A stretch of 64,000 nucleotides of DNA, from assembly GCA_016938175.1 (NCBI GenBank), contig JAFGVE010000027.1:62001-126000 (forward strand). Direction: 5' to 3'. Source of the DNA: Campylobacterales bacterium (lineage in GTDB: Bacteria; Campylobacterota; Campylobacteria; Campylobacterales; Sulfurimonadaceae). A model generated the notes under the pieces. That model did no database searches. It saw only the letters and a list, made by a program, of their open reading frames with translations, and had not been told where the DNA came from. Within the stretch, counting starts at the first letter, position 1; each line of letters begins with the position of its first letter. Shown one piece after another: positions 4,874-37,225 of this stretch. Made by a program: the position numbers and the translations under genes.

Positions 4874-6807
4874 AACTCTATAATCAAATGGCGCTCGCAA
4901 TCTCTTTTATAATTATTACAATACTTGCTTCAGTTATGGCTGTGAGTTATCAATCTACGAAAAAAGACATGCTTCAGAGTGTTTATGAAGCGAGTGTTAA
5001 TAATATCGCGACACTTGCACATACGCTTGCAAGTGCGCAAGGAGATGAAGTCATTATGATGAGTAGTGTGGATGCTGCTTTTGATAGTGGGTACTACAAG
5101 AGTATAGAGTTTCGCTCTAGTGATGGGGAGTTTGTTTATAAACAAGAGGATTCAGAGCAGATAGAGAGTGTTCCAGCATGGTTTGTGAAGTTTGCAGATG
5201 TAGCAAATACTCCCATAAGTGAAGACGTACTTGTTGGATGGGAGAGTATCGGAAAAGTAAGTATAGTCGGCGATACGGCAATAGTTTATAAGTCTTTGTA
5301 TAAAAGTTTTGTACGACTTCTCTATCTTTTTGCAATTTTTACTGTTATCTCTTTAGCGCTTTTTGCTGTCATGCTGTTTTACATACTCAAACCTCTCAAA
5401 GAGATACAAAAACAAGCAGAAGCTATTATGAGAGATGAGTTCGTGTATCAGGAAAAAATACCTTATACAACAGAGTTTAAAGAGGTTGTAAAAGGTATGA
5501 ACCAGATGGTGAAAAAGGTAGAGTATATTTTTATTAAAGGGAGTGAGGCACTCAAACGTAATCAAGAACTACTCTATATAGACCCGATAACAGAGCTTTA
5601 TAACAGACGTTATCTACTCTTAAAACTACCAGACCTTATCGCACTTGAAAATAGAGCAAATGGAGGAACACTCGTTTTTTTAGGACTTGGTGGAGCAGAA
5701 ATACTTAACCAGTCTTTAGGGCATGCAAATGCGGATAAGGTGTTTCAACGCTTAGGAAGTGTACTGCAACGAGTAGCAGAGAGCTTTGATGATGGTGTTG
5801 CCGCACGTGTAAATGGTACAGAGTTTATTATTGTGCTACCAAATTGTGAAGCACAAAAGAGTTTAGAAGTTGCCAAAGAGATACATACAAAATATGAACT
5901 TATACTTAAAAAGTACGAGCTTTTAAGTGAAGAGATAACACTTGATATAGGTTTATACAGATACAGACCAAATATGGATGTCAGTGAGCTTTTAACAAAA
6001 GCTGATAATGCTCTTACACACGCAAAAGCAGATGAATACAGCAGTATATATGTTTATGAAGAGAGAGACGATGAAAATGCTATGGGAAAAGAGCAGTGGA
6101 GAGAGATTATTGAAGAGTCAATAGAGAAAAAACAGATAGGACTGAAGTTTTGGTCTGTTTTAGACACTCGTAGCAGAAAAATCAGTCACAATGTAATGAG
6201 TTTTACTATAGATAATGGAGCACATAAAGAGTATTTTTATGGAGACTTTATAGCTCCGGCTATTAACCTTGGACTGGTAAGTAAAATTTATAAACTTGCG
6301 CTTGATACACTTCTAACAAACAAACACTCGCAGTTAGGAGACAAACTCTGTTCTATACGTTTGTCAAATGAATTCATAAAAGATCCATACTCTTATGAGA
6401 CTTTGTCATTCCTTTTAAAAGAGAAGGCTAAGGAGTTGCCATTTAAATTATCATTTGAACTCTCAGACAATTTTGTGGTGAAAAACCCAATATTGGTAGG
6501 AAACTTTATTAAACTTTTTAAAGAGACTGGATGTGAATTTGGTATCAATGCTTTTACTGGTGATTCGGAAGATTTTAGTTATCTAAAAGTTTATAATCCA
6601 CGTTTTATAAAAGCAGATGTGAGTTTTCTACTTGACCAATCTCAGGACTCTATGGGAGCTTTACGGGTCATTACTGATTCTTTAGGTTTAGAGATTATCG
6701 CCACTTCTGTGAGAACATCAGAGGAGCTAGAGCAATTAAGAGGGATGGGTATTTACAGCGTACAAGGACCTATAACGGACGAGATAACAAAGAGTATAAC
6801 AGAGTAG
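4870..6807 (+). CDS. LapD-like c-di-GMP receptor with degenerate GGDEF and EAL domains
   Basis: 645 residues. A membrane helix (about 7-27) is followed by a LapD/MoxY-type periplasmic domain (about 28-145), a second helix (about 147-173), a HAMP linker, a GGDEF-fold domain (about 230-400) and an EAL-fold domain (about 405-645). Both enzyme signatures are lost: NGTEF (315-319) replaces GGDEF, and KFW (426-428) replaces EAL. The later EAL-domain metal motif is also unrecognisable (NAFTGDSEDFSYL). This is what is expected of a c-di-GMP receptor rather than an enzyme. In the LapD model, c-di-GMP binding inside the cell makes the periplasmic domain hold LapG and protect surface adhesins. It is translationally coupled to the lapG-like gene. 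Confidence 0.87.
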   Translation: MKLYNQMALAISFIIITILASVMAVSYQSTKKDMLQSVYEASVNNIATLAHTLASAQGDEVIMMSSVDAAFDSGYYKSIEFRSSDGEFVYKQEDSEQIESVPAWFVKFADVANTPISEDVLVGWESIGKVSIVGDTAIVYKSLYKSFVRLLYLFAIFTVISLALFAVMLFYILKPLKEIQKQAEAIMRDEFVYQEKIPYTTEFKEVVKGMNQMVKKVEYIFIKGSEALKRNQELLYIDPITELYNRRYLLLKLPDLIALENRANGGTLVFLGLGGAEILNQSLGHANADKVFQRLGSVLQRVAESFDDGVAARVNGTEFIIVLPNCEAQKSLEVAKEIHTKYELILKKYELLSEEITLDIGLYRYRPNMDVSELLTKADNALTHAKADEYSSIYVYEERDDENAMGKEQWREIIEESIEKKQIGLKFWSVLDTRSRKISHNVMSFTIDNGAHKEYFYGDFIAPAINLGLVSKIYKLALDTLLTNKHSQLGDKLCSIRLSNEFIKDPYSYETLSFLLKEKAKELPFKLSFELSDNFVVKNPILVGNFIKLFKETGCEFGINAFTGDSEDFSYLKVYNPRFIKADVSFLLDQSQDSMGALRVITDSLGLEIIATSVRTSEELEQLRGMGIYSVQGPITDEITKSITE

Positions 6808-25536: not shown

Positions 25537-25554
25537 GCTTACTCAGTAATATCT
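25521..25554. terminator. Bidirectional terminator between rqcH group and sox operon
   Basis: AGATATTAC (25521-25529) and GTAATATCT (25546-25554) form a perfect 9-bp stem whose 16-base loop contains the near-palindrome GTATAAGCTTAC. A T run follows on the plus strand. Each arm also encodes the last residues (D-I-T) of one of the two convergent genes, whose stop codons lie in the loop. Confidence 0.6.
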
Positions 25555-26453
25555 TTTAAAATAGACTCAAAGTCATTTTGTGCTTTCATAAGCACTTCAT
25601 GAGCATCTTTGTCTTCAACTTTTGCAGAACTCATCCAGTTATAAACTGCTGGAAATCCTACGACAATCTTATCTTCATCTTTTTTCTTGTAAACCATAGT
25701 TGTACACGGTGCAAATGCAGATGCTTCAGGACGACTAAGTGCAACAGTATAAATTACTGGAAGTTTACAGATAGAGTAAGTAATATAAAAGTCATACTGA
25801 GATTCACCAGACTCTTGTAACTCTTCATTAAAATCCATAAATGAAGGCATAACAAAGCCGTATGGCTCAAAACCAGCTTCAAGGTTCATCTCAAAAGCAC
25901 TTTTTGCATCTTCCCAGTCTTCACCATCAAGATCAAGTTCGTACTGTGTTACAAGAGAGCGAGACTCTTTTAGTGAATCTTCACTAAGGTTCATTTTAGC
26001 GCCCGGAAGTGCTATTTTAAGTGCTTTAATTAGATCAGATTCTATTTGTGAAAGTATTTTTGTATCTGTTCCTAAAATTTTCGCCTGTGCCTCTGATGTT
26101 AAAATAGAAACATGAAGAGTAGTTTCGTCTTTTGCCTGATAAATTCCAACACCCATTGGTGTGAAAACACCTGCTTGCGGATATGTATTTACAAGTTCTG
26201 GTGTGAGAGCAGTATGATGTACAGTCATAAGTGTAAAGATACTAAACGTAGTCTTTTGAAACTGTTTCATAAAAGGAGTATTCATCTCTGAATTTAAATC
26301 AACAGAGAAACCGTTTTTTCCGAGAGTCTCTTCTATAGTAGCTGGAGTGATAGCTCCAGATTTGTTTTCTACACTAAAGAGGTGTAAATCGCCTTTTGCT
26401 TGTAAGTTTACTGCACAGATAAGTGCGATAGCAAGTAGTACTATTTTTTTCAT
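25539..26453 (-). CDS. Periplasmic DUF302 protein (two copies of the fold)
   Basis: 304 residues with a signal peptide (about 1-19). The sequence shows DUF302-type segments twice (FSIFTLMTVHHTALTPELV... and a second copy around YDFYITYSICKLPVIYTVAL, FAPCTTMVYKK). DUF302 proteins are small alpha/beta proteins often found near sulfur-oxidation or respiratory genes; their activity is not established. It is the last gene of the sox operon, 9 bases after the DsrE gene, and ends in the bidirectional hairpin. Confidence 0.8.
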   Translation of the reverse strand: MKKIVLLAIALICAVNLQAKGDLHLFSVENKSGAITPATIEETLGKNGFSVDLNSEMNTPFMKQFQKTTFSIFTLMTVHHTALTPELVNTYPQAGVFTPMGVGIYQAKDETTLHVSILTSEAQAKILGTDTKILSQIESDLIKALKIALPGAKMNLSEDSLKESRSLVTQYELDLDGEDWEDAKSAFEMNLEAGFEPYGFVMPSFMDFNEELQESGESQYDFYITYSICKLPVIYTVALSRPEASAFAPCTTMVYKKKDEDKIVVGFPAVYNWMSSAKVEDKDAHEVLMKAQNDFESILKDITE

Positions 26454-26462
26454 TGCTTCTTC

Positions 26463-26903
26463 CTAAGGTTTAATGTAAATCCAACCCTTTTGAACACTCT
26501 CAAGTAGTTCAACAACTCCTGCTGTAACTATCTCTGAGCCTTCTACTAGGTCTTCTTCTTTTATCTTAAGTGTTCGCATAGTATTTCCGCAAGCGATAAA
26601 CTCTACTTCATACTGCATCAGAGCATCAACTCTTACGGCAGTTGTAGGATTATGCTTGTTTAACAGTGCTATACCTTGTGAATATGCAACGATTTTCATC
26701 TGCACATTTTCAGGACCATAGAACTTCAACACGTTATTTGCAACACTAAGTATATGATCAAGAGCATGCTCGCTTCCCTCTGTAACTGAGAAGACAATTT
26801 TTCGAGGATTGTCAAAAGAGGGTTTAGGCTCTGCGTACTCTGTATCTGCAAATGAGAGAGTACAAAAGAAGAGTAAAATTAGTGTAAAATATTTCATTAT
26901 CAC
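26463..26903 (-). CDS. Periplasmic DsrE-family protein in the sox operon
   Basis: 146 residues with a signal peptide (about 1-19). The DsrE/DsrF-like fold is visible in KIVFSVTEGSEHALDHILSVANNVLKFYG, MKIVAYSQGIALLNKH and VEFIACGNTMRTLKI. In that last motif Cys sits where DsrE-type sulfur carriers have their reactive cysteine. DsrE proteins pass persulfide sulfur between partners, so in this setting it may trade sulfur with SoxYZ or the thioredoxin-like protein (inference). The upstream gap is 3 bases. Confidence 0.82.
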   Translation of the reverse strand: MIMKYFTLILLFFCTLSFADTEYAEPKPSFDNPRKIVFSVTEGSEHALDHILSVANNVLKFYGPENVQMKIVAYSQGIALLNKHNPTTAVRVDALMQYEVEFIACGNTMRTLKIKEEDLVEGSEIVTAGVVELLESVQKGWIYIKP

Positions 26904-26906
26904 TCC

Positions 26907-27281
26907 TTATTTGATAGTATCTGTGAGCTCTTTAAAGTCTTTTGCATTCCAAGAGCCAGGAATTTTTTTGATAATTTTTTGCTCAGCGTCTATAAAGAAA
27001 AAGGTAGGGGTAAAGTGTACTTTAATACCTAATGGAAGTTTTTCAGTATCTAAATTGATTTTAACAGGTATAAAACGTTCTTGTAAATAGTTTGACATTT
27101 CGGATTGGTTGAGAACGTCTCTTTCCATGTCGCTACAGTAGTGACAATCTGTGCGTACAACGTCAAGCATAATGATTTTTGCATTTTGTTTTTGTAGTTT
27201 GAGTGCATCTTCGTAGCTGTGGTATTGTAAGGCTAGGAGCGGAGAGAGCGTAAGAACTAGGAGAAACAGTAGCTTATTCAT
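26907..27281 (-). CDS. Thioredoxin-like periplasmic protein, SoxW-type
   Basis: 124 residues with a signal peptide (about 1-17). The thioredoxin fold carries a redox pair Cys46-His-Tyr-Cys49 (TDCHYCSDME), and the cis-Pro region is VHFTPTFFF. Proteins of this kind in sox clusters (SoxW) keep SoxY or other thiol carriers reduced or exchange disulfides in the periplasm. Its start overlaps the end of the MBL-fold gene by 8 bases, showing tight coupling. Confidence 0.82.
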   Translation of the reverse strand: MNKLLFLLVLTLSPLLALQYHSYEDALKLQKQNAKIIMLDVVRTDCHYCSDMERDVLNQSEMSNYLQERFIPVKINLDTEKLPLGIKVHFTPTFFFIDAEQKIIKKIPGSWNAKDFKELTDTIK

Positions 27282-28185
27282 CTCCCCACTCCAGCATTCT
27301 GTATGCGATTTCTACATTTTGTCTGTGCATGACGTCGTAGAGGTTTATATTTTTATATTTTGGCATCTCCACAATGTTCACAATGTCAGCAATCTCAACA
27401 CCCTCATCAAGTAAACGTGAAACTTCCGATTGGAGTTCTACAAGATAGTTATATGTCATAGTAAGAGCATCTTTTGTAACAAGGTTTCCGTGACCTCCGA
27501 CAATATGCTCTACATCTAAAGAACGAATTTCATCAAGTGTATCAATCCAGCCTTGTAGACTTCCATCACGAATAGATGGAATACGATCATTAAAGACAAG
27601 ATCTCCCGCAAAAACTATTTTTTGGCTCGGTATGTAAATGTAAAGATCACTATCTGTATGAGCTTTATGATTTACATGTTTTATATAGACTTTTTTCCCA
27701 TTTATCTCTAAAATTTTTTCATCTTCCACATAAAGAGATGGGTGTATTTGTTCTGTACCTTTATACGCTTCTTTACTAATACGACTTTGCATACGTGTTG
27801 TAACTTCTATAGGAAGCTGTCTAAAGTTGTCTGCACCTATAATTTTTGTGCCTTGCTCTTTATAGTAGCTATTTCCTAGCCAGTGATCATCATGAATATG
27901 TGTATTGATAAGATAAGAGAGAGGTAGGTCGTTAATCTCTTTCATTTTTGCGTGTGCTTGTGCTGCATAAGAGTATGTGGAGCCACTATCTATTAAAAGA
28001 TAAGTGTCTCCCATATTAACAAAACAAGAGTTTGAGATGTCTCCGTTGTTATGCTCGTCCATCACTTCTGAGTGCCCAAAAAAGCAGTGAGTTCCACCAC
28101 TCACTACCTCCTCAGGCTGTAACTTGTAATCAAATGCGAGGAGGAGAGAATTGATAAATAATAAACTCAGAATCTGTGATTTCAA
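27274..28185 (-). CDS. Periplasmic MBL-fold metallo-hydrolase, SoxH-like
   Basis: 303 residues with a signal peptide (about 1-18). The zinc site of metallo-beta-lactamase-fold enzymes is present: THIHDDHWLGN, HKAHTDSDLYIYIP, an aspartate in VFAGDLVFND and a late GGHG. This fold covers SoxH-type proteins and other hydrolases found in sox clusters; their substrate is not settled, and thiol esters, glutathione persulfide or sulfane sulfur derivatives are possible. It lies between the porin and the thioredoxin-like gene. Confidence 0.82.
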   Translation of the reverse strand: MKSQILSLLFINSLLLAFDYKLQPEEVVSGGTHCFFGHSEVMDEHNNGDISNSCFVNMGDTYLLIDSGSTYSYAAQAHAKMKEINDLPLSYLINTHIHDDHWLGNSYYKEQGTKIIGADNFRQLPIEVTTRMQSRISKEAYKGTEQIHPSLYVEDEKILEINGKKVYIKHVNHKAHTDSDLYIYIPSQKIVFAGDLVFNDRIPSIRDGSLQGWIDTLDEIRSLDVEHIVGGHGNLVTKDALTMTYNYLVELQSEVSRLLDEGVEIADIVNIVEMPKYKNINLYDVMHRQNVEIAYRMLEWGDE

Positions 28186-28195
28186 AGCATAACTC

Positions 28196-29683
28196 CTAGA
28201 ATAAATAGTTTAGCTCGAAACGGTACTCGTTGTAAGAGTCTTTATTACCGCCAGCCTCTCTATCTTTAGCATCTACTAAACCTACACGAATTTTTGCGTC
28301 AAGTCCCGAAGTGATTTGTTGTTTAAGGTCAACATGTAAAATGTTGCTATCAGCTTGAACACCTGCTGCTTGCTTTGCTTCATCGAAGTCTTGCATTGCA
28401 TAGCGAGCCATTGCACTAAATCCAGTTACTAGGTTTGCTTTGCCAAAGTCATAAAAAACTTCTGCAGCACTTGTTTTAGTATTTGCATACCAGTTATATT
28501 GTGCCATTGCACGAGTATATCCACCAGTTGGGAATCCACGCCATGGTGCTACGATATCCGCATTATCTCCAACTTGAGAGTAAGCGATTTGTGCTTTCAT
28601 TGGACCTTTTTTAAGTACTAAACGAGCCATAGCAAGTTTTGAATCAAGTGTATATCTATTGCTATATCCTAAGTTGTTTGCTGGTGTTTTATCAATCCCA
28701 AGTGTACCTTTTAAAGTAGCACCACCGATTTCACCACCACCATTATCCATTTGGTGCATGTAACGAACACCTGGAGTAAGAGAGTAACCGCTACCTAAGT
28801 CAATTGCATAGTTAAGCTCACCAGTAATTGAAGAAACAACATCTGGAACAAGACCATATGTTACATCAACTTGAAGTCCTTTTATAGATGTATTTCTTGC
28901 ATCAACTACAATTAACTCATGTGATGTTGACTTTCCTGCAGTTGTAAAGTTTTTGTGTGATAAACCTTTGTGTACTGCTGAGTCATCATTGTTATTCCAG
29001 TTTGAAGCACCGTCACTAAACGTAATTACATCGTGAAACGTAGTGTGGTCACGTAGTTTTTGTGCTGTGAAATAAGCTCCACGAATTGTTGTATCTGGAA
29101 GCTCTTTTGTCTCAAGTACAAAACCTTCAAAAGTATTTGGAATCATTTTTGTGTCATTTGATTTTGTTAAGAATGATTCAAATATTTGACGACCCGCAAT
29201 AAGTTTTGTTTTTGAAATTTGGTATTGAAGATTTGCTTCTGCAAGTACAGCCATTGAGTAGTTACCAGTTGTTGCAACTTCGTAACGGCTAAATGTATCT
29301 TTACCAGCTTTTACAGTTCCAATGTCATCTGCACTCATACGTAGTGCTTCAAATGGAGAGTCAGAGTAGTATAGACCAACATGACCGCTAACACCCATAT
29401 AAGATGCACTTGTATATGAAAGGCTACCACCTACACCGAATGCGTAGTTGTCTCCATTAGAATCTTCTTGCCAATCCCACTTGAAAGAGTTCATTCTAAG
29501 TCTTCCATAAAATACACCCTCACTGAACATTTCAGAAAGAGAGTCTACTTTACCTGGAACTGTATTTGTTACAACCATCATGTTGTTTTTTAATTGACGC
29601 TTTGGTTTTGCATCCTCTGCGTATGCCGTTGAACTTAATGCTAATGCAGCTACCGCTACTGCGCTCATTTTAACTAATTTCAT
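28196..29683 (-). CDS. OprD-like outer membrane porin of the sox operon
   Basis: 495 residues with a signal peptide (about 1-22) and a beta-barrel ending in YRFELNYLF. It is a clear paralogue of the porin at 9811-11265, sharing TKMIPNTF, NDDSAVHKGL and PWRGFPTGGYTRAMAQYNW. Lying 24 bases after soxB and before the MBL-fold gene, it is inside the sox operon. It may be the entry route for thiosulfate or another sulfur oxyanion (inference from position). Oxyanion-selective porins of this kind would explain why its relative is tied to molybdate uptake. Confidence 0.85.
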   Translation of the reverse strand: MKLVKMSAVAVAALALSSTAYAEDAKPKRQLKNNMMVVTNTVPGKVDSLSEMFSEGVFYGRLRMNSFKWDWQEDSNGDNYAFGVGGSLSYTSASYMGVSGHVGLYYSDSPFEALRMSADDIGTVKAGKDTFSRYEVATTGNYSMAVLAEANLQYQISKTKLIAGRQIFESFLTKSNDTKMIPNTFEGFVLETKELPDTTIRGAYFTAQKLRDHTTFHDVITFSDGASNWNNNDDSAVHKGLSHKNFTTAGKSTSHELIVVDARNTSIKGLQVDVTYGLVPDVVSSITGELNYAIDLGSGYSLTPGVRYMHQMDNGGGEIGGATLKGTLGIDKTPANNLGYSNRYTLDSKLAMARLVLKKGPMKAQIAYSQVGDNADIVAPWRGFPTGGYTRAMAQYNWYANTKTSAAEVFYDFGKANLVTGFSAMARYAMQDFDEAKQAAGVQADSNILHVDLKQQITSGLDAKIRVGLVDAKDREAGGNKDSYNEYRFELNYLF

Positions 29684-29707: not shown

Positions 29708-31474
29708 TTAACAGCTAGTTGACCCTTTAGTAGGGCACCCACATTCATAATCAACAAGAGTAACATTACCCTCATTGCTTACATCTACAACCTTCTCTCG
29801 TTTGATGTAGTCTCTTACAACATCGTATACAGGACGAATTTTATCTTTTTGTAAATTCATACCTGCATTTTGCAAGTTACCACCCCAAGATGAGACAACA
29901 TAAGTCTTCTCTAAATCAATCGGCTGACCACCAATCATAAGTTTCGAGATTCTTTTTCCGGCTTCACCAGCAACTGCTATAGAGTAAGTGACTCCACCAA
30001 GACGACTCATATCACCACCTTGCTGATAGAGTGGATTTGCATTAAATACGTTATCCGCTATATCCTCAAGAAGGTTTGCAATCTGTTTTCCTTTTAGCTC
30101 AAAGGTATAAACATTAGGGTAGGTAATTCCACACATCTCATAAACGTTGTCCATAAGAATGTCATCACCCGCTAGAACCGTAGTTCCCCATCTATACCCA
30201 GGAGTAAAAGATATGTCACATTTCATCTCATCGATTATAGCATCATTAATGAGCTGGTCGAATGTTGAGAAGAAAGTGTCACGTTTATAAAGCGTGTTTT
30301 TTGTTTTTCCTAAAACTTCATTAAACTCATCTGCAAATGGAGCATAAAGCTCTTCAATGAGTTTATCACCTGCTGGATCCGCTGGAATCATATTTGATGC
30401 GATTGGAACAAGTTTATACTCGTATCCGTGTACTTTTCCGTCTCTTGCATCTACATCAAGACGTCCAACATATTTCCCGTGGCTTCCAGCGATTACGATA
30501 ACAGTACCGTTAATTACTATAGGCGCTGGTGAAGGGTCATGTGTGTGACCACTTAAGATAAAGTCAATTCCGTTAACCATACGAGCTACCTCTTGGTCAA
30601 CACTAAATCCATCGTGAGATATAACAACCACACAATCAACTTTGTGTTCATTACGTAACTCATCAACATAGTCCTGAAGTGTTTCAGGTCTAATTCCAAA
30701 GCTCCACCCTTCAGTAAACTCTTTTGGATTTGCAGTAGATGTGAATGGGAATGCCTGACCGATTACACCGATTTTAGCACCACCTCTCTCTTCGATTGTA
30801 TATGGAGAGAAAATAAGCTCTTCATAATCATCGGCAAAAGGGTCGTTTCCAATTACGTTTTGTGCAATGAATTTTGCATCAAGCATTTCGATGAGTTCGA
30901 GAACTCTCTCTTTCCCGTAAGTAAACTCCCAGTGTCCAGTCATAATGTCAACACCAAGGTAGTTTTGCGCTTTTACAATCGCTTCACCATCTGTTTTAAG
31001 TGCAACACCTGTACCTTGCCAAGTATCCCCTGAGTCTAGGAAAAGTACGTTCTCTTTTCCACGTTCGCTTCTTACATGATCAAGGTATGTTTTCATGTGT
31101 GAGATACCACCCATTTTCCCAAACTTTTTCGCAAGTGTGTCAAAGTCCATGTGCGTATCGAAATAAGCATCAAGGCTAGATGGCTCTAAACCATAGTGTT
31201 TTGCAAATGCCTCACCACATAAAAAACCTGGAGTCCCTACAAGGTTTGGAGCCGAAATAAGAGTTGACGGCTCTCTCCAGTAGAGAGGTTTAAGGTGTGC
31301 ATGAATATCACACATATGTAAAAGTGTAAAGTTACCCATTGATTTAAATGCATAGATATCTTTTAAAGATACCTGAGCAGGAGTTTTTACACCTTTAGAA
31401 GCACATCCGCTTGCAACTGCACCAATTCCGAGAATTGCAGCGATGTGCATAAAGTCACGTCTTGAAATATCCAT
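29708..31474 (-). CDS. soxB: Thiosulfohydrolase SoxB
   Basis: 588 residues. The N-terminus has a Tat-type signal (SRRDFMHIA) followed by ASGCASKG. The 5'-nucleotidase-like metallophosphatase core carries the dimanganese site residues in LLHMCDIHAHLKP, LFLDSGDTWQG, VISHDG and LSGHTHDPS; a C-terminal nucleotidase domain follows. SoxB hydrolyses the sulfonate from SoxY-bound thiosulfonate in the periplasm, releasing sulfate. It lies 9 bases after soxA. Confidence 0.95.
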   Translation of the reverse strand: MDISRRDFMHIAAILGIGAVASGCASKGVKTPAQVSLKDIYAFKSMGNFTLLHMCDIHAHLKPLYWREPSTLISAPNLVGTPGFLCGEAFAKHYGLEPSSLDAYFDTHMDFDTLAKKFGKMGGISHMKTYLDHVRSERGKENVLFLDSGDTWQGTGVALKTDGEAIVKAQNYLGVDIMTGHWEFTYGKERVLELIEMLDAKFIAQNVIGNDPFADDYEELIFSPYTIEERGGAKIGVIGQAFPFTSTANPKEFTEGWSFGIRPETLQDYVDELRNEHKVDCVVVISHDGFSVDQEVARMVNGIDFILSGHTHDPSPAPIVINGTVIVIAGSHGKYVGRLDVDARDGKVHGYEYKLVPIASNMIPADPAGDKLIEELYAPFADEFNEVLGKTKNTLYKRDTFFSTFDQLINDAIIDEMKCDISFTPGYRWGTTVLAGDDILMDNVYEMCGITYPNVYTFELKGKQIANLLEDIADNVFNANPLYQQGGDMSRLGGVTYSIAVAGEAGKRISKLMIGGQPIDLEKTYVVSSWGGNLQNAGMNLQKDKIRPVYDVVRDYIKREKVVDVSNEGNVTLVDYECGCPTKGSTSC

Positions 31475-31483
31475 TACGCAGTC

Positions 31484-32257
31484 CTATCTTTTGAGACCAG
31501 GAATAGCGATTTCGCTTCCCTTAGCCTGTTCAGTAAGATACACTTCAAGTGCTACCATCTCAGGTGAACCAAGTGGAATTACTTTTAAAAGTGCATTGTT
31601 CATACAACCTTGAAAACGACGTTGTAGTGTTCTTAATGAAGACTTCGTCATTCTATATGCAGGCCATGTTGCAGCAGGAGCATTTCCTTTTGCACTTAGG
31701 TCTGGAAGTGGTTGTGTTCTTAAAATTGTTCCAATAACTTCTGGAGAGTGACAGCTCATACAAGCAAGACCACGTCCACCACGTTGTTGGATAAATGTTT
31801 TTTCACCTAAAGCGTACGCATCTTTCATATGCTGATTTGCATTAATGTCGATGTTACTTTTTTCACCGTTTGCAATTGATTTTGCATACGCACTCATGTC
31901 AAACATATCTGAGCTTTTAAGTGCAAATGGTTTGTGACCATTTTTACTCATTAGACCTTGAAGAGCTTGGTCAAGTCCTACAACTTGTTTAAACTCTGGA
32001 AGGTAACGTGGGAAACCAGCGATGTATGCCGGTAATTTTTCTTCACTCACACCAAAAAATGCAGCTAAACCTGCATCACCACCACAGTACTCTTCTAAAA
32101 GCTCACTTCCGTTTGCAATCATCATATCTGCAGGGTTATTTTCTAGCATCTCTTCGTACATAGCACGGTCAGCATCACTCATAGCAAACTGATCACCTGC
32201 AAAAGAGAGTGATGAGAGAAGAGCAATAGATAATGCTATTTTGATTCCTCTTTTCAT
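31484..32257 (-). CDS. soxA: SoxA, single-haem subunit of the SoxAX L-cysteine S-thiosulfotransferase
   Basis: 257 residues with a signal peptide (1-20). Only one haem motif is present, CMSCH (Cys166-His170), as in the single-haem SoxA class. The active-site cysteine is expected at Cys218 in RRFQGCMNN. With SoxX it attaches thiosulfate oxidatively to the SoxY cysteine. The gene is 3 bases from soxZ upstream. Confidence 0.94.
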   Translation of the reverse strand: MKRGIKIALSIALLSSLSFAGDQFAMSDADRAMYEEMLENNPADMMIANGSELLEEYCGGDAGLAAFFGVSEEKLPAYIAGFPRYLPEFKQVVGLDQALQGLMSKNGHKPFALKSSDMFDMSAYAKSIANGEKSNIDINANQHMKDAYALGEKTFIQQRGGRGLACMSCHSPEVIGTILRTQPLPDLSAKGNAPAATWPAYRMTKSSLRTLQRRFQGCMNNALLKVIPLGSPEMVALEVYLTEQAKGSEIAIPGLKR

Positions 32258-32260
32258 CTT

Positions 32261-32599
32261 TTATCCTTTTGGTTTTATCTTTGTACTCGTTTCGTGTACT
32301 TCACCAGTATTGTCTGTAAATGTTACAGTCAGCTTTCCTGCACCGTTGATTTTCATATTTGTAGTAAACACTGGATTTACTGAAAGAGATTCCCATACAG
32401 TCATGTTTGTAATCTCTTTTCCGTTGTAGTTAAACTTAACACTATTAATGTATTTTGCAGGGATGATTTCTTTAGTTTTTTTATCTTTCCCCATACCCGT
32501 ATCCATTGGGTGCATTACCATGAAGTCAACTTTTACAACTTCACCATCTTTATATTTTTTTGGTTTGATTTTAATCAGTGATTTTCTTTTCTCAGCCAT
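32261..32599 (-). CDS. soxZ: SoxZ, partner of the sulfur carrier SoxY
   Basis: 112 residues starting MAEKRKSLIKIKPK, preceded by GAGGAAA at suitable spacing; longer in-frame starts would overlap soxY and lack support. The immunoglobulin-like SoxZ fold is visible in VDFMVMHPMDTGMGKD and KINGAGKLTVTFTDN. There is no signal peptide: SoxZ is exported bound to SoxY through the Tat pathway. Together SoxYZ carries the sulfur intermediates of the Sox cycle. Confidence 0.94.
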   Translation of the reverse strand: MAEKRKSLIKIKPKKYKDGEVVKVDFMVMHPMDTGMGKDKKTKEIIPAKYINSVKFNYNGKEITNMTVWESLSVNPVFTTNMKINGAGKLTVTFTDNTGEVHETSTKIKPKG

Positions 32600-32654
32600 T
32601 GTTTTTTCCTCTTTATTTATATATTTTTCTTTTTCTTGTTTATATGAGGTTAAA

Positions 32655-33125
32655 TCAACCACATCCACCGATAGTAACTTTTACGCTTTGAGAAGCAATA
32701 AGTACTTCACCATTGCTTAAAACTGCAACTGCACTTACTTCTTGCGTACCACCAAGTTTAATACGTGTAGAGAACATTGCTTTACCATTTGCAGGTGTAA
32801 GGTTTACGTCAATACAACGAGCATTTGAGTTACCACCAGCTAAGATATGAATAGACTTTACATAGTCACTGTCAGTCATTGGTGAGTCAACTGTAGCTGT
32901 TACTGGAACTACTGCACCGTTTTCAGCGATTTCTGGTACTTTGATTTTAATTTTGTCAGATTTAACAGGTGTTTTTCCACCAGTAATAGCGTTAAGTGCT
33001 GTCTCAAAACTCATTTTGTTTGGACCAGATGGTTTTGCATCAGCCGCAAAACTCATTGTAGGAAGTGCTACAGCCGCAACAGCAGTAGCCGCACCAAGTT
33101 GTTTAAAAAATTCTCTTCTTTGCAT
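32655..33125 (-). CDS. soxY: SoxY, thiosulfate-carrier protein
   Basis: 156 residues. Tat-type signal MQRREFFKQLGAATAVAAVA, then the SoxY beta-sandwich (HILAGGNSNARCIDVNLTPANGKAMFSTRIKL). The carrier arm ends in GGCG, one Gly shorter than the GGCGG of Paracoccus SoxY, and keeps the essential cysteine that bears the sulfur cargo. It is 18 bases after soxX. Confidence 0.94.
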   Translation of the reverse strand: MQRREFFKQLGAATAVAAVALPTMSFAADAKPSGPNKMSFETALNAITGGKTPVKSDKIKIKVPEIAENGAVVPVTATVDSPMTDSDYVKSIHILAGGNSNARCIDVNLTPANGKAMFSTRIKLGGTQEVSAVAVLSNGEVLIASQSVKVTIGGCG

Positions 33126-33143: not shown

Positions 33144-33668
33144 CTATTTTTTTGAAACTATGTATGAAGTTATTTCACAGATCTCTTTAACACTAAAGAG
33201 TTTTGTTGTGAGGTTTACTGTCATGTGTGTTGTTGGATTGTCGATTCTTGGATCGGCAATTTTTTGAAACACAAATGCGTTGTCTCTTACACCTGTCTGC
33301 ATAAAGTTTTCATTGTACGATGTTAAATCAGGACCAATATTTCCTGCACCTTTCGCACCTTCAATGTTGTGGCACGCTACACAGTTACCGTACTGTTTAG
33401 GTTCACCGTTTGCAAGTGTTTTTGCTAAACCTTTTGGCGTTTTGCCTTTTACTTTTTCTCCATTTAAGTTATGGAAAATAAAAGCACCCCTAGCAATCGC
33501 ATCGGCATCTGTTGTTATACAGTCAGCTGGCATTTTGTATTTTGTAGCTGGTGCCAATAAGTCTGCTTTAATCATCTCGCTTGCATTTGGTTTCTCTATT
33601 ACATTGCTATAATCAGCAGCAAAAAGAGATGCACTTACAAGTAGTGAGAGCATGAAAGTCTTTTTCAT
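33144..33668 (-). CDS. soxX: SoxX, c-type cytochrome subunit of SoxAX
   Basis: 174 residues with a signal peptide (1-18) and one haem motif CVACH (Cys96-His100), then GAGNIGPDLTSYNENFMQTG and a likely distal Met in the segment HMTVNL. With SoxA it starts the Sox cycle and passes electrons onward. It is the first gene of the operon soxXYZAB-porin-MBL-thioredoxin-DsrE-DUF302. AGGAGG lies just before the ATG. The promoter carries a tandem TTTTACAC site. Confidence 0.95.
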   Translation of the reverse strand: MKKTFMLSLLVSASLFAADYSNVIEKPNASEMIKADLLAPATKYKMPADCITTDADAIARGAFIFHNLNGEKVKGKTPKGLAKTLANGEPKQYGNCVACHNIEGAKGAGNIGPDLTSYNENFMQTGVRDNAFVFQKIADPRIDNPTTHMTVNLTTKLFSVKEICEITSYIVSKK

Positions 33669-33698: not shown

Positions 33699-33704
33699 AG
33701 TATA
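33699..33704 (-). promoter_or_regulatory. -10 box of the soxX promoter
   Basis: TATACT on the minus strand, exactly 8 bases after the tandem TTTTACAC site and 30 bases before the soxX ATG. No good -35 hexamer is seen at standard spacing; the repeat occupies that place, as in activator-dependent promoters. Confidence 0.55.
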
Positions 33705-33712
33705 ACTGTGAA

Positions 33713-33731
33713 GTGTAAAATTTGTGTAAAA
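33713..33731 (-). promoter_or_regulatory. Tandem TTTTACAC operator upstream of soxX
   Basis: On the minus strand TTTTACAC-AAA-TTTTACAC forms a perfect direct repeat with an 11-base period. A looser third half-site (TTTTTTACA-like, plus-strand TGTAAAAAATT at 33742) lies further upstream. Head-to-tail 11-base repeats just before the -10 box are typical of PhoB/OmpR-family activators. The same repeat occurs at 36691-36709. Confidence 0.6.
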
Positions 33732-33768
33732 TTTTATGTATTGTAAAAAATTATATTAGTAGATGGGA

Positions 33769-34923
33769 TTATTGGGAGAATTCTGAGAAAATATAGATGA
33801 ATTCACTCCCTATTTTAGGGGTTGAGTTGATTTTTAGTTCGATTCCAGATTCATCGATAATTGACTTCACAATATTAAGACCGATACCAAATCCACCTTT
33901 ATTTGTATCTTCTCTATAGTATCTGCTAAAGATTTTATTTACATTTGCGATACCAACTCCATAGTCTTGAAAACTTAAAAAACATTCATTGTTCTTAATA
34001 AAGAGATAGATGTCAATTTTAGAACCATCATGAGAGTACTTGATTGCATTAGAGATTGTATTGTCGATAACACGCTGGAGTTTTTTTGAATTTATAGTGA
34101 TAATAGGTTGTGCATCAATATGCTGATAGATAATAATATTCTTCATATTTGCTACTTCACTAAAGTACTCCACACGCTCGTTAAGAAATTCTGCAAGTTC
34201 TATGGACTCTTGTTGGTAGTCTATTTTGTCATGCTTTATAAGGTAGTCCATATCATTATATATATTTGAGAGTACCTTTGAAGCGGCTTTCATCCTGTTT
34301 AAATATTTGTTTGGAGGATTTTTTCTATTGTAGAGATCTATATTTACGTTTATAATAGAAAGTGGGGTGTTTATCTCATGCACAGAGTCTTTAATGAAGT
34401 TATCAAGCGTTTGGTTTATACGTTTAAAAGGTTCGGCGAAGGTCTGTAAAAAGATGAGTGAGAGAATAAAAACAAGTAAAACAACACTAAAGAGAATAAG
34501 AAAGATTTTTTCATAGAGTTCAGCAAGAGAGAGACTATTTTGCATAATAAGGTAGCGTGCACCAAAGTAACGTTCTCCTGGTAATTTGACTATAAGATAG
34601 GCTTTGTCATCGTCAAGATGGTAGCCATCTTTAAAGTAGTTAATATCATCCTCGATAAGTGTAAAAATTGGTGCGAACTTTTCGTTGTAAAGACCTGAGC
34701 GAAATGTTTTAAAACGTGGGTATTCAAAATACTCCTCATTTTGATTAAACTCCTCCATCGCTTTAATGATAAGTTGTGATTTTTCTTTTAAGAAGAGCTC
34801 GTTTTGTATAGAATAAATGCTTTTCATATATATAAAATAGAAAAAGAGCGGTGTCAGTAAGATAATTGATACTAAGGATGTATAAATGAGGGCGTATTTC
34901 GCCGAGTAGTTACTGTCTTTCAA
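33769..34923 (-). CDS. Sensor histidine kinase of the sox-adjacent two-component system
   Basis: About 384 residues if translation starts at the TTG at 34923, which overlaps the regulator gene by 14 bases; the exact start is uncertain. Two membrane helices (about 10-32 and 155-180) flank a periplasmic domain of about 120 residues. There is little or no HAMP, then the phosphoacceptor helix with HEINTPLSI and an ATPase domain with N-box SNAIKYS, DYGVGI and GGFGIGLNIV. It phosphorylates the adjacent regulator. Its stop lies about 100 bases upstream of soxX on the same strand. Confidence 0.88.
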   Translation of the reverse strand: MKDSNYSAKYALIYTSLVSIILLTPLFFYFIYMKSIYSIQNELFLKEKSQLIIKAMEEFNQNEEYFEYPRFKTFRSGLYNEKFAPIFTLIEDDINYFKDGYHLDDDKAYLIVKLPGERYFGARYLIMQNSLSLAELYEKIFLILFSVVLLVFILSLIFLQTFAEPFKRINQTLDNFIKDSVHEINTPLSIINVNIDLYNRKNPPNKYLNRMKAASKVLSNIYNDMDYLIKHDKIDYQQESIELAEFLNERVEYFSEVANMKNIIIYQHIDAQPIITINSKKLQRVIDNTISNAIKYSHDGSKIDIYLFIKNNECFLSFQDYGVGIANVNKIFSRYYREDTNKGGFGIGLNIVKSIIDESGIELKINSTPKIGSEFIYIFSEFSQ

Positions 34924-35566
34924 TAATGTATCCAAGCCCTCTTCTGTTTTGTATAACAGAGTCTGGGAGTTTTTTTCGTAAATTATTGAGTTGTACACGA
35001 ATGGTTGCAGGTTCTACATACTCTCCCCAAACAGCATCTTGAAACATCTGTGTTGAAACAACTGCATTTTTATTTTTAATGAGTACTTCAAGCATATCTT
35101 TTTCTGTTTTACGCAGTACTATCTCTTTGTCATTTTGCATAAGTTTACTCTTCTTCATATCGTACACAATATCACATCCAATAGATACGAGTGAGCCTTC
35201 ATCATCCGAGAACTTAGAGAGTGCGTGATCTATACGCAGTTCTAACTCCTCTAGGTCAAAAGGTTTTCTCATATAATCACAACAGCCACGTTTATAACCC
35301 TCTTTGAGTGCTGCTATATCTGTCATAGATGTAAGAAATATAGCCGGTACTGTTTGTCCATCTTGACGTAGTTTCTGAAGCATTTCAAGCCCATTTATAG
35401 TGGGGACATTTATATCAAGGAGAAGAAGGTCATAGGCTTTGTCATAAACAGCGTGAAATGCATCCTCTCCATCAGTAAAACCATCTACTTCGTAGCCTAT
35501 GTCTGTTAAAAACTCCTCTATGCTTATACGCAGTGAGTATTCATCTTCAAGTAATAGTATTTTCAT
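34910..35566 (-). CDS. OmpR/PhoB-type response regulator next to sox
   Basis: 218 residues. The receiver domain (1-120) has the acidic pocket EDE (7-9), phospho-acceptor Asp51 in LLLDINVPTINGLEM and the conserved Lys in MRKPF. The C-terminal winged helix (about 125-218) is of the OmpR class (EKDMLEVLIKNKNAVVSTQMF, VQLNNLRKKLPD, RRGLGYIIE). Its ATG overlaps the upstream Cache-sensor stop (ATGA). OmpR-class regulators bind head-to-tail repeats of about 11 bases, and just such repeats flank this operon, so it is the best candidate regulator of sox (inference). Confidence 0.9.
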   Translation of the reverse strand: MKILLLEDEYSLRISIEEFLTDIGYEVDGFTDGEDAFHAVYDKAYDLLLLDINVPTINGLEMLQKLRQDGQTVPAIFLTSMTDIAALKEGYKRGCCDYMRKPFDLEELELRIDHALSKFSDDEGSLVSIGCDIVYDMKKSKLMQNDKEIVLRKTEKDMLEVLIKNKNAVVSTQMFQDAVWGEYVEPATIRVQLNNLRKKLPDSVIQNRRGLGYIIERQ

Positions 35567-36660
35567 TTAATCTTCCCGTCTATTTTTTTCACAATATTTT
35601 TGTTGAGCATCATCTGAATGAGTTCATCTTTTGAATAGCTGTCCAGCTTATCATATGCTTCATCTAAAAAGAGTTCTCTATCTTCACGTTCAATTATCTC
35701 CTGAAGCGACATCATAGAGTCGGCTGAGAGATTTGTATACATTTCACCACTATATGATTCGGCTTTTGTAATGTCATAAAGACTACTGCGTGTGACGTTT
35801 ACCAAAAATGAGATGTCATCTTCTGGATCTCTAAAGTAGTCAAAATATCTCTGTGGCAGGACAAAAACAAACCCCCCTATGATTTTTCCATCACCATCTT
35901 TCATATTTTCATAAAAGATATATTTATCGTCTCTGTGTGTAACACCGCTTAAACGTAACTCTTTAAAGTCCACTTTTTTCAGTGTCTGAATGTGGGAATA
36001 GTTATAGTTTCTGTTTGCAACTATATAGTTTTGCATTGCAAGATTATCTGTCATTAGAACTGCTGTATCCATGTACTTAGTATCTAACAGAACATATAAA
36101 TCAACTCCCATTGTGCTAAAGAAGTTTGTAAGTCCCTTAAAAAAAGAGATAACCTCCATAAAACCTAAACGTGTACCATCTTTTAAGTATACAGGAACAG
36201 TGGCTTTTACTCCTAAACGTCTTCCTATCTCCATAGATGTTCTTGGTGTTGTATGTGTTTGAAAATATTTTAAATCTGTTCTGTAGTCGCCTATAGGCAT
36301 TCCAGCATAAACATCATCCCAGCTACGTGCAAATATATTGAGTTCATCTGTTATGATTTGAGCACGTATGTGGTAGTGCGTATTTTTTTCTATCTCTTTT
36401 ATAGTGTTAGAGAGTAAAATATATCCTAGGTCCTCATCTTCATTTTCCAATGCGTCAATAAGAGCTTGATTTTTTGAGAGTAAAATGGCCGTTTTTAAGT
36501 CATTCATTTTATGCTCTTTGAGTTGTGCATCGAGTGTGAGGCGAAGTTGGTCCATGATGTTATAAATTTTCTGCTCTTTTACTTGCATACCAAAATAGAA
36601 AAAAATACCGATGATTAAGGCAATAAGAGGAATAAAAATAAGTGCAAGTTTTTGTAACAT
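35563..36660 (-). CDS. Membrane-anchored Cache-type sensor protein without kinase domain
   Basis: About 365 residues from ATG 36660. A single N-terminal membrane helix (about 3-23) is followed by a large periplasmic double-Cache-like region (about 30-280): MDQLRLTLDAQLKEHKMNDL, TPRTSMEIGRRLGVKATVPVY, LGFMEVISFFKGL. There is no second obvious helix and no kinase, GGDEF or MCP output; the C-terminal tail is helical and charged. It is the first gene of an operon with the response regulator and kinase. It may bind a sulfur compound or other ligand and hand the signal to the kinase (inference). No strong ribosome site is seen before the ATG. Confidence 0.82.
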   Translation of the reverse strand: MLQKLALIFIPLIALIIGIFFYFGMQVKEQKIYNIMDQLRLTLDAQLKEHKMNDLKTAILLSKNQALIDALENEDEDLGYILLSNTIKEIEKNTHYHIRAQIITDELNIFARSWDDVYAGMPIGDYRTDLKYFQTHTTPRTSMEIGRRLGVKATVPVYLKDGTRLGFMEVISFFKGLTNFFSTMGVDLYVLLDTKYMDTAVLMTDNLAMQNYIVANRNYNYSHIQTLKKVDFKELRLSGVTHRDDKYIFYENMKDGDGKIIGGFVFVLPQRYFDYFRDPEDDISFLVNVTRSSLYDITKAESYSGEMYTNLSADSMMSLQEIIEREDRELFLDEAYDKLDSYSKDELIQMMLNKNIVKKIDGKIK

Positions 36661-36690
36661 AGCGTACCATTTGATGAAATAATGGCTACA

Positions 36691-36709
36691 TTTTACACTA
36701 TTTTTACAC
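36691..36709 (+). promoter_or_regulatory. Tandem TTTTACAC operator between Cache sensor and DsrE-like gene
   Basis: TTTTACAC-TAT-TTTTACAC is a perfect direct repeat with an 11-base period. It ends 45 bases before the DsrE-like ATG and 8 bases before TAAAAT (36718-36723), the same geometry as at soxX. Because it lies in a divergent intergenic region it could also control the Cache-sensor/two-component operon, giving autoregulation. Confidence 0.6.
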
Positions 36710-36717
36710 AAATCAAA

Positions 36718-36723
36718 TAAAAT
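36718..36723 (+). promoter_or_regulatory. -10-like box of the DsrE-like gene
   Basis: TAAAAT begins 8 bases after the tandem repeat, matching the spacing of the soxX -10 box. TATATA near 36740 is an alternative. Confidence 0.4.
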
Positions 36724-36754: not shown

Positions 36755-37225
36755 ATGATGATGAAAATTTTAGTAAGCCTTTTGGCATTCTTTGGATTAC
36801 TTTTTGCAGAAGGCGACGTAAAAAAAGTTGTTATTGATTTGACGACAGGTGATACTTCTGTGTTTGAAAAGAAAATTTTAAGTGGAGTTGTAGCACATAA
36901 AACACACTATGAAAACTCCTTTGAAGAGCTTGAAGTTGCGGTTGTTATTCACGGTGGGGCTTATAGATTTTTTCTAAAAGATCCAAGCAATACTGTATAT
37001 AGAGATGATGCTGTCTTAAGAGAGAAATTTGCCGAGTTGAAAAAACGTACAGAAACACTCTCTAGCACCTATAATGTAGAGTTTTTAATGTGTGATGTTG
37101 GACGTAAAAAAAACAAGTTAGAACTTAGTAATATTGCAGAGTATGTAAAAATAGTTCCAAACTCAACTATTGGACTTATAGACAAGCAGAGTGAAGGGTA
37201 CGCTTATATTCCTGTGAGTAAGTAG
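36755..37225 (+). CDS. Second periplasmic DsrE-like protein
   Basis: 156 residues. Three consecutive ATGs follow AGAAGAAGGA; the second or third has the best spacing. A signal peptide (about 1-19) leads into a DsrE-like fold: KVVIDLTTGD, VAVVIHGGAYRFFL and YNVEFLMCDVGRKKN. The cysteine in FLMCDVG is at the position of the reactive thiol in this family. It stands outside the sox operon but has the same tandem operator and spacing as soxX, so it is probably co-expressed and may take part in periplasmic sulfur transfer. Confidence 0.8.
   Translation: MMMKILVSLLAFFGLLFAEGDVKKVVIDLTTGDTSVFEKKILSGVVAHKTHYENSFEELEVAVVIHGGAYRFFLKDPSNTVYRDDAVLREKFAELKKRTETLSSTYNVEFLMCDVGRKKNKLELSNIAEYVKIVPNSTIGLIDKQSEGYAYIPVSK

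Follow-up and report, generated by a model that had tools for sequence, protein, structure and literature searches.

A tandem TTTTACA operator before soxX and dsrE2 and a candidate OmpR-type switch of sulfur oxidation in Campylobacterales

Introduction

The described systems nearest in function to the one considered here are PceS/PceP of Sulfurospirillum, RsrS/RsrR and TspS/TspR of Acidithiobacillus, and ThsS/ThsR of Shewanella, a two-component system responding to thiosulfate; the operators of the first three differ from the present one. We analysed 64,000 nucleotides (the window) of a Campylobacterales bacterium of the family Sulfurimonadaceae (GenBank assembly GCA_016938175.1, contig JAFGVE010000027.1, positions 62,001 to 126,000, forward strand), in which an 11-base head-to-tail repeat, TTTTACAC-N3-TTTTACAC, stands before the sulfur-oxidation gene soxX and before a DsrE-like gene, dsrE2, with a response regulator gene between the two sites. 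We propose, with a probability of roughly four in five, that this regulator binds the tandem repeat and activates a small Sox regulon.

PceS/PceP is likewise an OmpR-type system of Campylobacterota and acts on respiratory genes through direct repeats mostly overlapping the -35 region, but its operator is CTATW-N17-CTATW, whereas TTTTACA-N4-TTTTACA is found here; its trigger is tetrachloroethene, and excerpts of its description name no separate Cache protein (PMC7755780). RsrS/RsrR of Acidithiobacillus caldus is EnvZ/OmpR-like, acts positively on a thiosulfate-pathway gene and uses a 19-bp repeat, but it serves the tetrathionate pathway (tetH) through an inverted repeat, AACACCTGTTACACCTGTT, upstream of the promoter and belongs to another phylum (PMC5093147). 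The genes of TspS/TspR lie upstream of soxXYZA-hyp-soxB in the Acidithiobacillus sox-II cluster, with thiosulfate as the proposed signal; this system differs in being sigma-54-dependent, with the upstream activator sequence TGTCCCAAATGGGACA, and represents another regulator class (PMC6335251). In the regulator of the window, Pfam finds a receiver and a winged helix only and no sigma-54 interaction domain, which separates it from TspR.

The kind of regulator is already known, the OmpR/PhoB family. A PhoB-type tandem operator has half-sites 11 bases apart and ends about 8-10 bases before the -10 element. PhoB/PhoR and PmrA-type systems share with the present locus a winged-helix response regulator with a recognition-helix valine at the thymine-touching PhoB position and two direct half-sites about one helical turn apart just ahead of the -10 element. 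They differ from it in that here the half-site is TTTTACA, a separate sensing protein stands beside the kinase and the targets are Sox genes. As far as seen, novelty lies in the half-site, in the pathway targeted in this phylum, in the use of a detached Cache protein as third component and in the constancy of the promoter geometry across the order.

Many Campylobacterota are established sulfur oxidizers. Sox is carried by 30.7% of Campylobacterota species, and SoxR, likewise a dedicated sox regulator, is a sulfane-sulfur-responsive repressor reported as strictly confined to Proteobacteria (PMC10451225). Among the matches listed in excerpts of a review of respiratory regulation in the phylum, sox is mentioned once and no sox regulator is named (PMC6682613). 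A sequence-only reading of the window, which proposed the operator, knew of no described sox activator of this kind for Campylobacterota, and we likewise found no description of a sox regulator for the phylum in the accessible parts of the open-licence literature. The present result supplies a candidate regulator, an exact predicted binding site and a gene list, and the motif hints at a joint function of certain sulfur genes (DsrE, DUF302, chemoreceptors).

The operator and its conservation

Both tandem sites were confirmed, with the positions and the 8-base and 44-45-base spacings that the sequence-only reading had given. The copy before soxX, TTTTACACAAATTTTACAC (33731-33713, minus strand), and the copy before dsrE2, TTTTACACTATTTTTACAC (36691-36709, plus strand), contain no mismatch, and both end exactly 8 bases ahead of a -10-like hexamer, TATACT for soxX and TAAAAT for dsrE2. 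The gap from operator to start codon is 44 bases for soxX (ATG 33668) and 45 bases for dsrE2 (ATG 36755, which is followed by another in-frame ATG). With head-to-tail half-sites 11 bases apart over the -35 region, the operator has the PhoB-type tandem arrangement. Reading the second repeat as a -35 box was rejected, the repeat lying only about 9 bases from the -10 hexamer.

The perfect pattern occurs only in these 2 copies in the 2.26-Mb genome. In the window, 7 matches with up to 3 mismatches were found against 2.06 +/- 1.34 expected, and 0 of 100 shuffles reached 7. Across the genome, 4 copies with up to 1 mismatch compared with 0 for the reversed control pattern, and 16 with 9 at up to 2 mismatches, so the weak matches are mostly noise. 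The bare pattern at up to 1 mismatch gave 102 matches in 68 of 121 family genomes against 55 for the control; because of these counts its enrichment is moderate, about twofold, and it is the position and the -10 spacing that carry the case.

Conservation upstream of soxX in relatives, which the proposal called for, was found at three scales; the family, order and named-genome sets overlap in species, so their counts are not additive. SoxX was present in 74 of the 121 home-family genomes, and DNA around soxX was fetched for 73 besides the window's own; with the window included and L163 dropped, as it begins inside soxX, 73 loci had upstream sequence. A site was counted when TTTTACA-N4-TTTTACA matched in 12 or more of its 14 letters no further than 200 nt from soxX. 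Results showed that 72 of 73 family promoters carry the tandem, or 73 of 73 when L144 is counted, where it lies 334 nt upstream of soxX behind an insert. A TA...T -10 element stood exactly at +8 in 71 of the 72 sites, and in the sole miss, L131, the repeat is triple and was read out of register. Information content in these promoters peaked at both half-sites and the -10 element and was low in the upstream flank; the downstream leader is also conserved in parts.

Outside the home family, an order sample of 199 genomes contained 39 with SoxX. All 19 soxX loci outside the family, of 22 examined, carry the tandem with 11 to 14 of 14 letters, and the -10 element was at +8 in 17 of them (L312 and L314 read +9 by eye). 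In 12 further order stretches, 3 of them from genomes already counted, the tandem was seen by eye in 10; L422 has no upstream DNA and L428 (genome G127) no tandem. The named-genome set comprised the best 80 of 143 loci, with titles including Sulfurimonas, Sulfuricurvum, Sulfurovum, Nitratiruptor and Hydrogenimonas; 78 of these extend far enough upstream of soxX, and in 75 of the 78 the tandem matches in 11 or 12 of 12 letters with a -10 element at +8.

Some soxX promoters are built differently. In L144 operator and -10 element are parted from soxX by an insert of nearly 300 bp, partly palindromic by eye, which is missing from L145 and L148. L131 has a triple instead of a double TTTTACA repeat at the same 11-base period. 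In L426 (G136) both half-sites read TTTACGC, and its sister locus L427 has the change in one copy only.

The operator with its -10 element is not equally common elsewhere. A promoter model, R1, was trained on 61 soxX sites only, including the window's own and the misregistered L131. In the home genome it ranked soxX first (4.1e-8, a training site), the untrained dsrE2 site second (1.9e-3) and a site inside dsrE1 third (0.028), with background beginning at 0.26. A later weight matrix, built without L131, scored 98 sites at more than 12 bits across the 1.02 Mb of the 73 family loci: 72 before soxX (training sites), 7 before dsrE2, 4 before DUF302 genes, 1 at dsrE1, 6 before other genes, 1 before a gene labelled sensor that encodes a chemoreceptor-like protein, and 7 without a recognised open reading frame behind them. 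In the same loci, 86 of 1402 regions upstream of open reading frames exceeded 12 bits, soxX ones included, and a first-order Markov control gave 0 sites in three passes. A chance origin of the two sites was rejected from the shuffles, the R1 ranking and the empty Markov control.

The third site of the home genome (26871-26889, minus strand) has one mismatch and lies inside the first codons of dsrE1. Sites of this type recur in L130, L132, L134, L139 and L155, some in or near dsrE1. As the site is in the same reading frame in two relatives compared by eye, coding constraint is as good an explanation as regulation; it may also be an internal promoter.

A probable link between the response regulator and the operator

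The gene between the two sites (34910-35566), assigned to the OmpR type from the letters alone, encodes a protein of this family: Pfam finds Response_reg (1.4e-24) and Trans_reg_C (6.9e-14), and the protein matches solved family members over nearly its full length (best 1kgs, E 2e-32). D51, presumably the phospho-acceptor aspartate, is invariant in 23 aligned sequences. Sensor, response regulator and histidine kinase genes are adjacent on the minus strand, followed in the same direction by soxXYZAB and accessory genes, and dsrE2 is transcribed divergently from the sensor gene. The order sensor-regulator-kinase-soxX on one strand was found in 66 of the 73 family loci and in 54 of the 80 named ones; of the seven family loci without it, six are cut off by the end of a contig, and in L165 other genes lie upstream.

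The predicted co-occurrence was also found. At E <= 1e-60 the regulator was detected in 36 of 39 SoxX genomes of the order sample and in 16 of 160 others (Fisher 1.3e-23, kinship ignored), and within the home family the sensor at E <= 1e-86 was detected in 70 of 74 SoxX genomes and 2 of 47 others; these cut-offs were chosen in the present analysis, and relatedness was left uncorrected. Among the three exceptions in the order sample, G227 has the operator and a regulator just above the cut-off (6.8e-60), G127 (L428) has no operator and a best regulator match of 33%, and the third is G136. Where the genes are unlinked, the operator was kept together with the regulator: in L347 (G306) the regulator, 62% identical, is on another contig, and in L431 the three-gene set is found past the sox operon, on the opposite strand. 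The named loci L316 (G305) and L349 (G307) lack the operator, and in their genomes no regulator ortholog was found, the best matches being 38% identical.

The recognition helix points the same way. Among the 89 distinct regulator/operator pairs compared, L345 is the only one with a replacement at V191 (V191A) and also the only one with base 4 changed from T to C in both half-sites (TTTCACA), a possible natural specificity switch. V191 aligns with the BasR/PmrA valine, and we take it to be PhoB Val197 from the residue correspondences in PMC3973317 and the PhoB sequence. PhoB Val197 is reported to contact thymines in both half-sites (PMC3973317). When a second case of the TTTCACA covariation was looked for among 60 genomes around G304, the matches listed were mostly background; the loci inspected of G304 itself showed no other good TTTCACA site, and a weak one precedes what is by eye a gene for an iron-sulfur subunit.

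Several observations weigh against a regulator of this kind acting at the repeat. The genomes are related, so the counts are not independent, and the 16 of 160 genomes without soxX do contain regulator-like genes. Only 4 of the 12 further order stretches exceeded 12 bits with the family matrix, because in several of the 12 the -10 element is at 9 or unclear although the tandem is plain by eye. G136 retains the tandem, with the kinase adjacent at the contig end, and its best regulator match is 39% identical and on another contig. The joint loss is weakened since L316 and L349 were picked for the check because their operator was absent, and L349 has only 122 nt of upstream DNA. In L316 the regulator's first 20 codons are fused straight to soxX (5941-6525): a single deletion has taken out the rest of the regulator along with the kinase and the soxX operator. 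The dsrE2 operator is still present there, and because it remains, the loss is either a recent natural deletion or an assembly fault. The covariation, finally, is a single genome, and L345 has further changes in the recognition helix, of which K199A is also unique.

Proposed mechanism and alternatives

The first interpretation, that the regulator activates sox and dsrE2 through the repeat, is supported by these comparisons, and binding and activation are suggested by geometry and covariation. In the proposed mechanism, a double-Cache-type protein facing the periplasm would detect a reduced-sulfur signal, perhaps thiosulfate or a close relative, and act through the adjacent membrane histidine kinase, which would phosphorylate the OmpR/PhoB-type regulator. 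A regulator dimer would then sit head to tail on the two 11-base repeats in place of a -35 box and recruit RNA polymerase, activating soxXYZAB with the accessory genes behind it and, separately, dsrE2. In relatives, DUF302 genes, chemoreceptor genes with a related sensor domain and sulfur transporter genes would be attached through the same operator.

The sensor protein of this scheme was examined separately. It has no Pfam family match, dCache_3 (PF14827) included at E 0.1; by eye it has one N-terminal hydrophobic helix, and it contains no kinase domain. The AlphaFold model has a mean predicted local distance difference test score of 85.5, with a weaker C-terminal part, and in Foldseek it matched double-Cache domains, the best being DctB (E 2.8e-7, probability 1.00), although the template-modelling score on the query was only 0.36-0.40 for the better DctB matches. 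By BLASTP the sensor is related to two operator-driven chemoreceptors (9e-12 for L259, 1e-17 for L261). The sensor is thus modelled as a double-Cache fold, and because the gene order is constant we infer that it feeds the adjacent kinase.

Activation is favoured over repression because of the fixed position over the -35 region and the published expression in Sulfurovum indicum, where the soxABXY1Z1 cluster was higher on thiosulfate than on S0 and the neighbouring dsrE, soxW and soxH1 were up 2.17-3.83-fold (PMC10045233), which is consistent with activation from the operator. That the regulator mainly represses and is released by the sulfur signal, as SoxR is in Proteobacteria, or that it has a dual role, we regard as improbable. 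An operator that overlaps the -35 region may stand in the way of polymerase. Most PceP sites in Sulfurospirillum overlap it as well, and the authors of that work weigh repression there and favour activation (PMC7755780). Here the second repeat leaves no room for a -35 box at 17-base spacing, and the fixed 8-base distance to the -10 element fits activation as at PhoB promoters. Slightly less probable still is that another winged-helix regulator binds the repeat and the neighbouring three-gene system controls something else. Each of seven genomes examined has several OmpR-type regulators, the operator stays in L431 and L347 though the regulator is not beside soxX, G136 keeps it without a clear regulator ortholog, and the target protein of L203 also belongs to the winged-helix type. 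In the same phylum, CemR of Campylobacter jejuni and Arcobacter butzleri, a response regulator of the same class described as atypical, affects energy metabolism genes, with SOX named in a figure legend; excerpts of that paper give neither an operator sequence nor a link to sox promoters (PMC11334517). Against another regulator at the repeat stand the gene order across families, the co-occurrence, the regulator kept where unlinked, its missing ortholog in the two named genomes whose soxX locus has no site and the V191A/TTTCACA covariation.

A non-specific origin of the repeat is harder still to sustain. T-rich tracts upstream of the -10 element are usual in Campylobacterota promoters, and the bare pattern is only about twice as frequent as its control; both fit a general promoter element of AT-rich genomes. 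This explanation is largely refuted and very improbable, since the full model leaves only two strong sites in the home genome, the Markov control was empty, and the non-soxX sites of the 73 family loci stand mainly before dsrE2 and DUF302 genes. The idea of a local duplication or chance match without regulatory role could draw on there being only two perfect copies in the genome; it has a negligible probability and is refuted by conservation, since other genera and families preserve each copy before its respective gene and have differing upstream flanks.

With activation by the neighbouring regulator as the preferred reading, the repeat and the three-gene system look, on sequence grounds, like the missing sulfur-oxidation switch of the group. 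The strict 8-base geometry is kept across several families of the order. A wider claim, that this is an order-wide Sox master switch of Campylobacterales in which a three-protein relay has its sulfur signal read by the detached double-Cache protein and chemotaxis is tied to the same switch, is tentative, and we place it a little short of even odds. If true, induction of sox genes and movement of the cell towards its electron donor would share a single signal and a single switch.

Features of the locus and further candidate targets

The features of the locus are collected in Table 1. The names soxY, soxZ, soxA and soxB are our assumption. The sensor gene most likely starts at ATG 36660 and not at the listed TTG 36711, because its orthologs have about 362-378 aa; the dsrE2 site would therefore lie 30 bases upstream of the sensor gene. 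For the histidine kinase, TTG 34920 is our guess for the start, the listed open reading frame beginning at GTG 34998.

Table 1 Coordinates of the operators and genes in the window
Feature	Position	Strand	Remarks
Operator before soxX	33713..33731	-	TTTTACAC-N3-TTTTACAC, 11-base head-to-tail repeat; conserved in relatives
-10-like hexamer TATACT of soxX	33699..33704	-	begins 8 bases past the operator
Operator before dsrE2	36691..36709	+	between dsrE2 and the divergent sensor gene; dsrE2 sites also in relatives
-10-like hexamer TAAAAT of dsrE2	36718..36723	+	begins 8 bases past the operator
Double-Cache-type sensor gene	35563..36660	-	365 aa from ATG 36660; probably membrane-anchored and periplasmic, without kinase domain
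OmpR/PhoB-family response regulator, proposed operator-binding protein	34910..35566	-	Pfam; conserved recognition helix
Sensor histidine kinase	33769..34920	-	Pfam HisKA, HATPase_c; gene order
soxX	33144..33668	-	first gene of the proposed regulated operon; ATG 33668
soxY, soxZ, soxA, soxB	29708..33125	-	open reading frames; conserved order
OprD-type porin, metallo-hydrolase (SoxH-like), thioredoxin (SoxW-like), dsrE1, DUF302 gene	25539..29683	-	continues the sox operon with close spacing
dsrE2 (DsrE/DsrF-like), second regulon promoter	36755..37225	+	Pfam DsrE 8.1e-08

The placing of the second DsrE gene in the regulon was borne out in relatives. Among 30 dsrE2 loci, the window's included, 16 have a site above 12 bits and 3 a weaker one at the same place; 10 dsrE2 genes lie 2-81 bases behind a DUF302 gene, which in several of the 10 follows dsrE1 in the sox cluster, and one locus is without a site (L114, genome G119, which has neither SoxX nor the sensor). 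dsrE2 is thus mostly under its own site or behind a DUF302 gene, and the DUF302 gene has its own site in L135, L136 and L142. The operator also lies between the sensor gene and the divergent DsrE gene in four of five Sulfurovum records (L370, L381, L387 and L392, not L379).

The suggestion that the regulator may also control its own divergent operon fared less well. A site within 300 nt upstream of the sensor was present in only 3 of 65 and 7 of 53 loci, and 9 of these 10 sites are on the divergent strand, so general autoregulation was rejected. In L138, L153 and L159 the site precedes dsrE2 and the sensor operon follows behind it in the same direction.

Other targets were read from 40 stretches around non-soxX R1 hits, among the matches listed, and from 7 stretches (L202-L208), six of which match the bare pattern. 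Chemoreceptor genes stand behind the operator in L259 (dCache_3, 5.1e-30 by Pfam) and L261 (a sub-threshold Cache match); the proteins of L264, L265, L268 and L291, also behind the operator, resemble that of L259 by eye, and the target protein of L281 matches dCache_3 (PF14827) as well. Through these genes chemotaxis may be part of the sulfur regulon. A Sulf_transp protein of the YeeE/YedE type follows the operator in L206 (Pfam, 8.9e-50). In L144, L145 and L148 a 468-aa protein follows it, with no Pfam match for the L145 copy tested. A perfect tandem with -10 element precedes a 142-147 aa protein in L203 and L204, alike by eye; in the L203 protein Pfam finds a winged-helix domain only, which makes a second-tier regulator possible. 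Proteins of 132-145 aa are encoded 159-177 bases behind a tandem with -10 element in L254, L256, L274, L275, L276 and L283, and the long leader suggests further control; that of L254 has no Pfam match. Sulfide:quinone reductase was not recognised by eye as the first gene behind a site among the matches listed, and no dedicated search for it was made.

A few sites stand apart. Those 16 bases before a gene that we take to be purB, in three genomes that lack SoxX (L266, L269, L272), were judged unrelated, and one site, at C3:13833, has no open reading frame behind it. L253 (G050), from a genome in which SoxX was not found, has two sites about 1 kb apart, at 2945 and at 3953 (minus strand), each preceding a gene with CxxCH motifs that appears cytochrome-like by eye.

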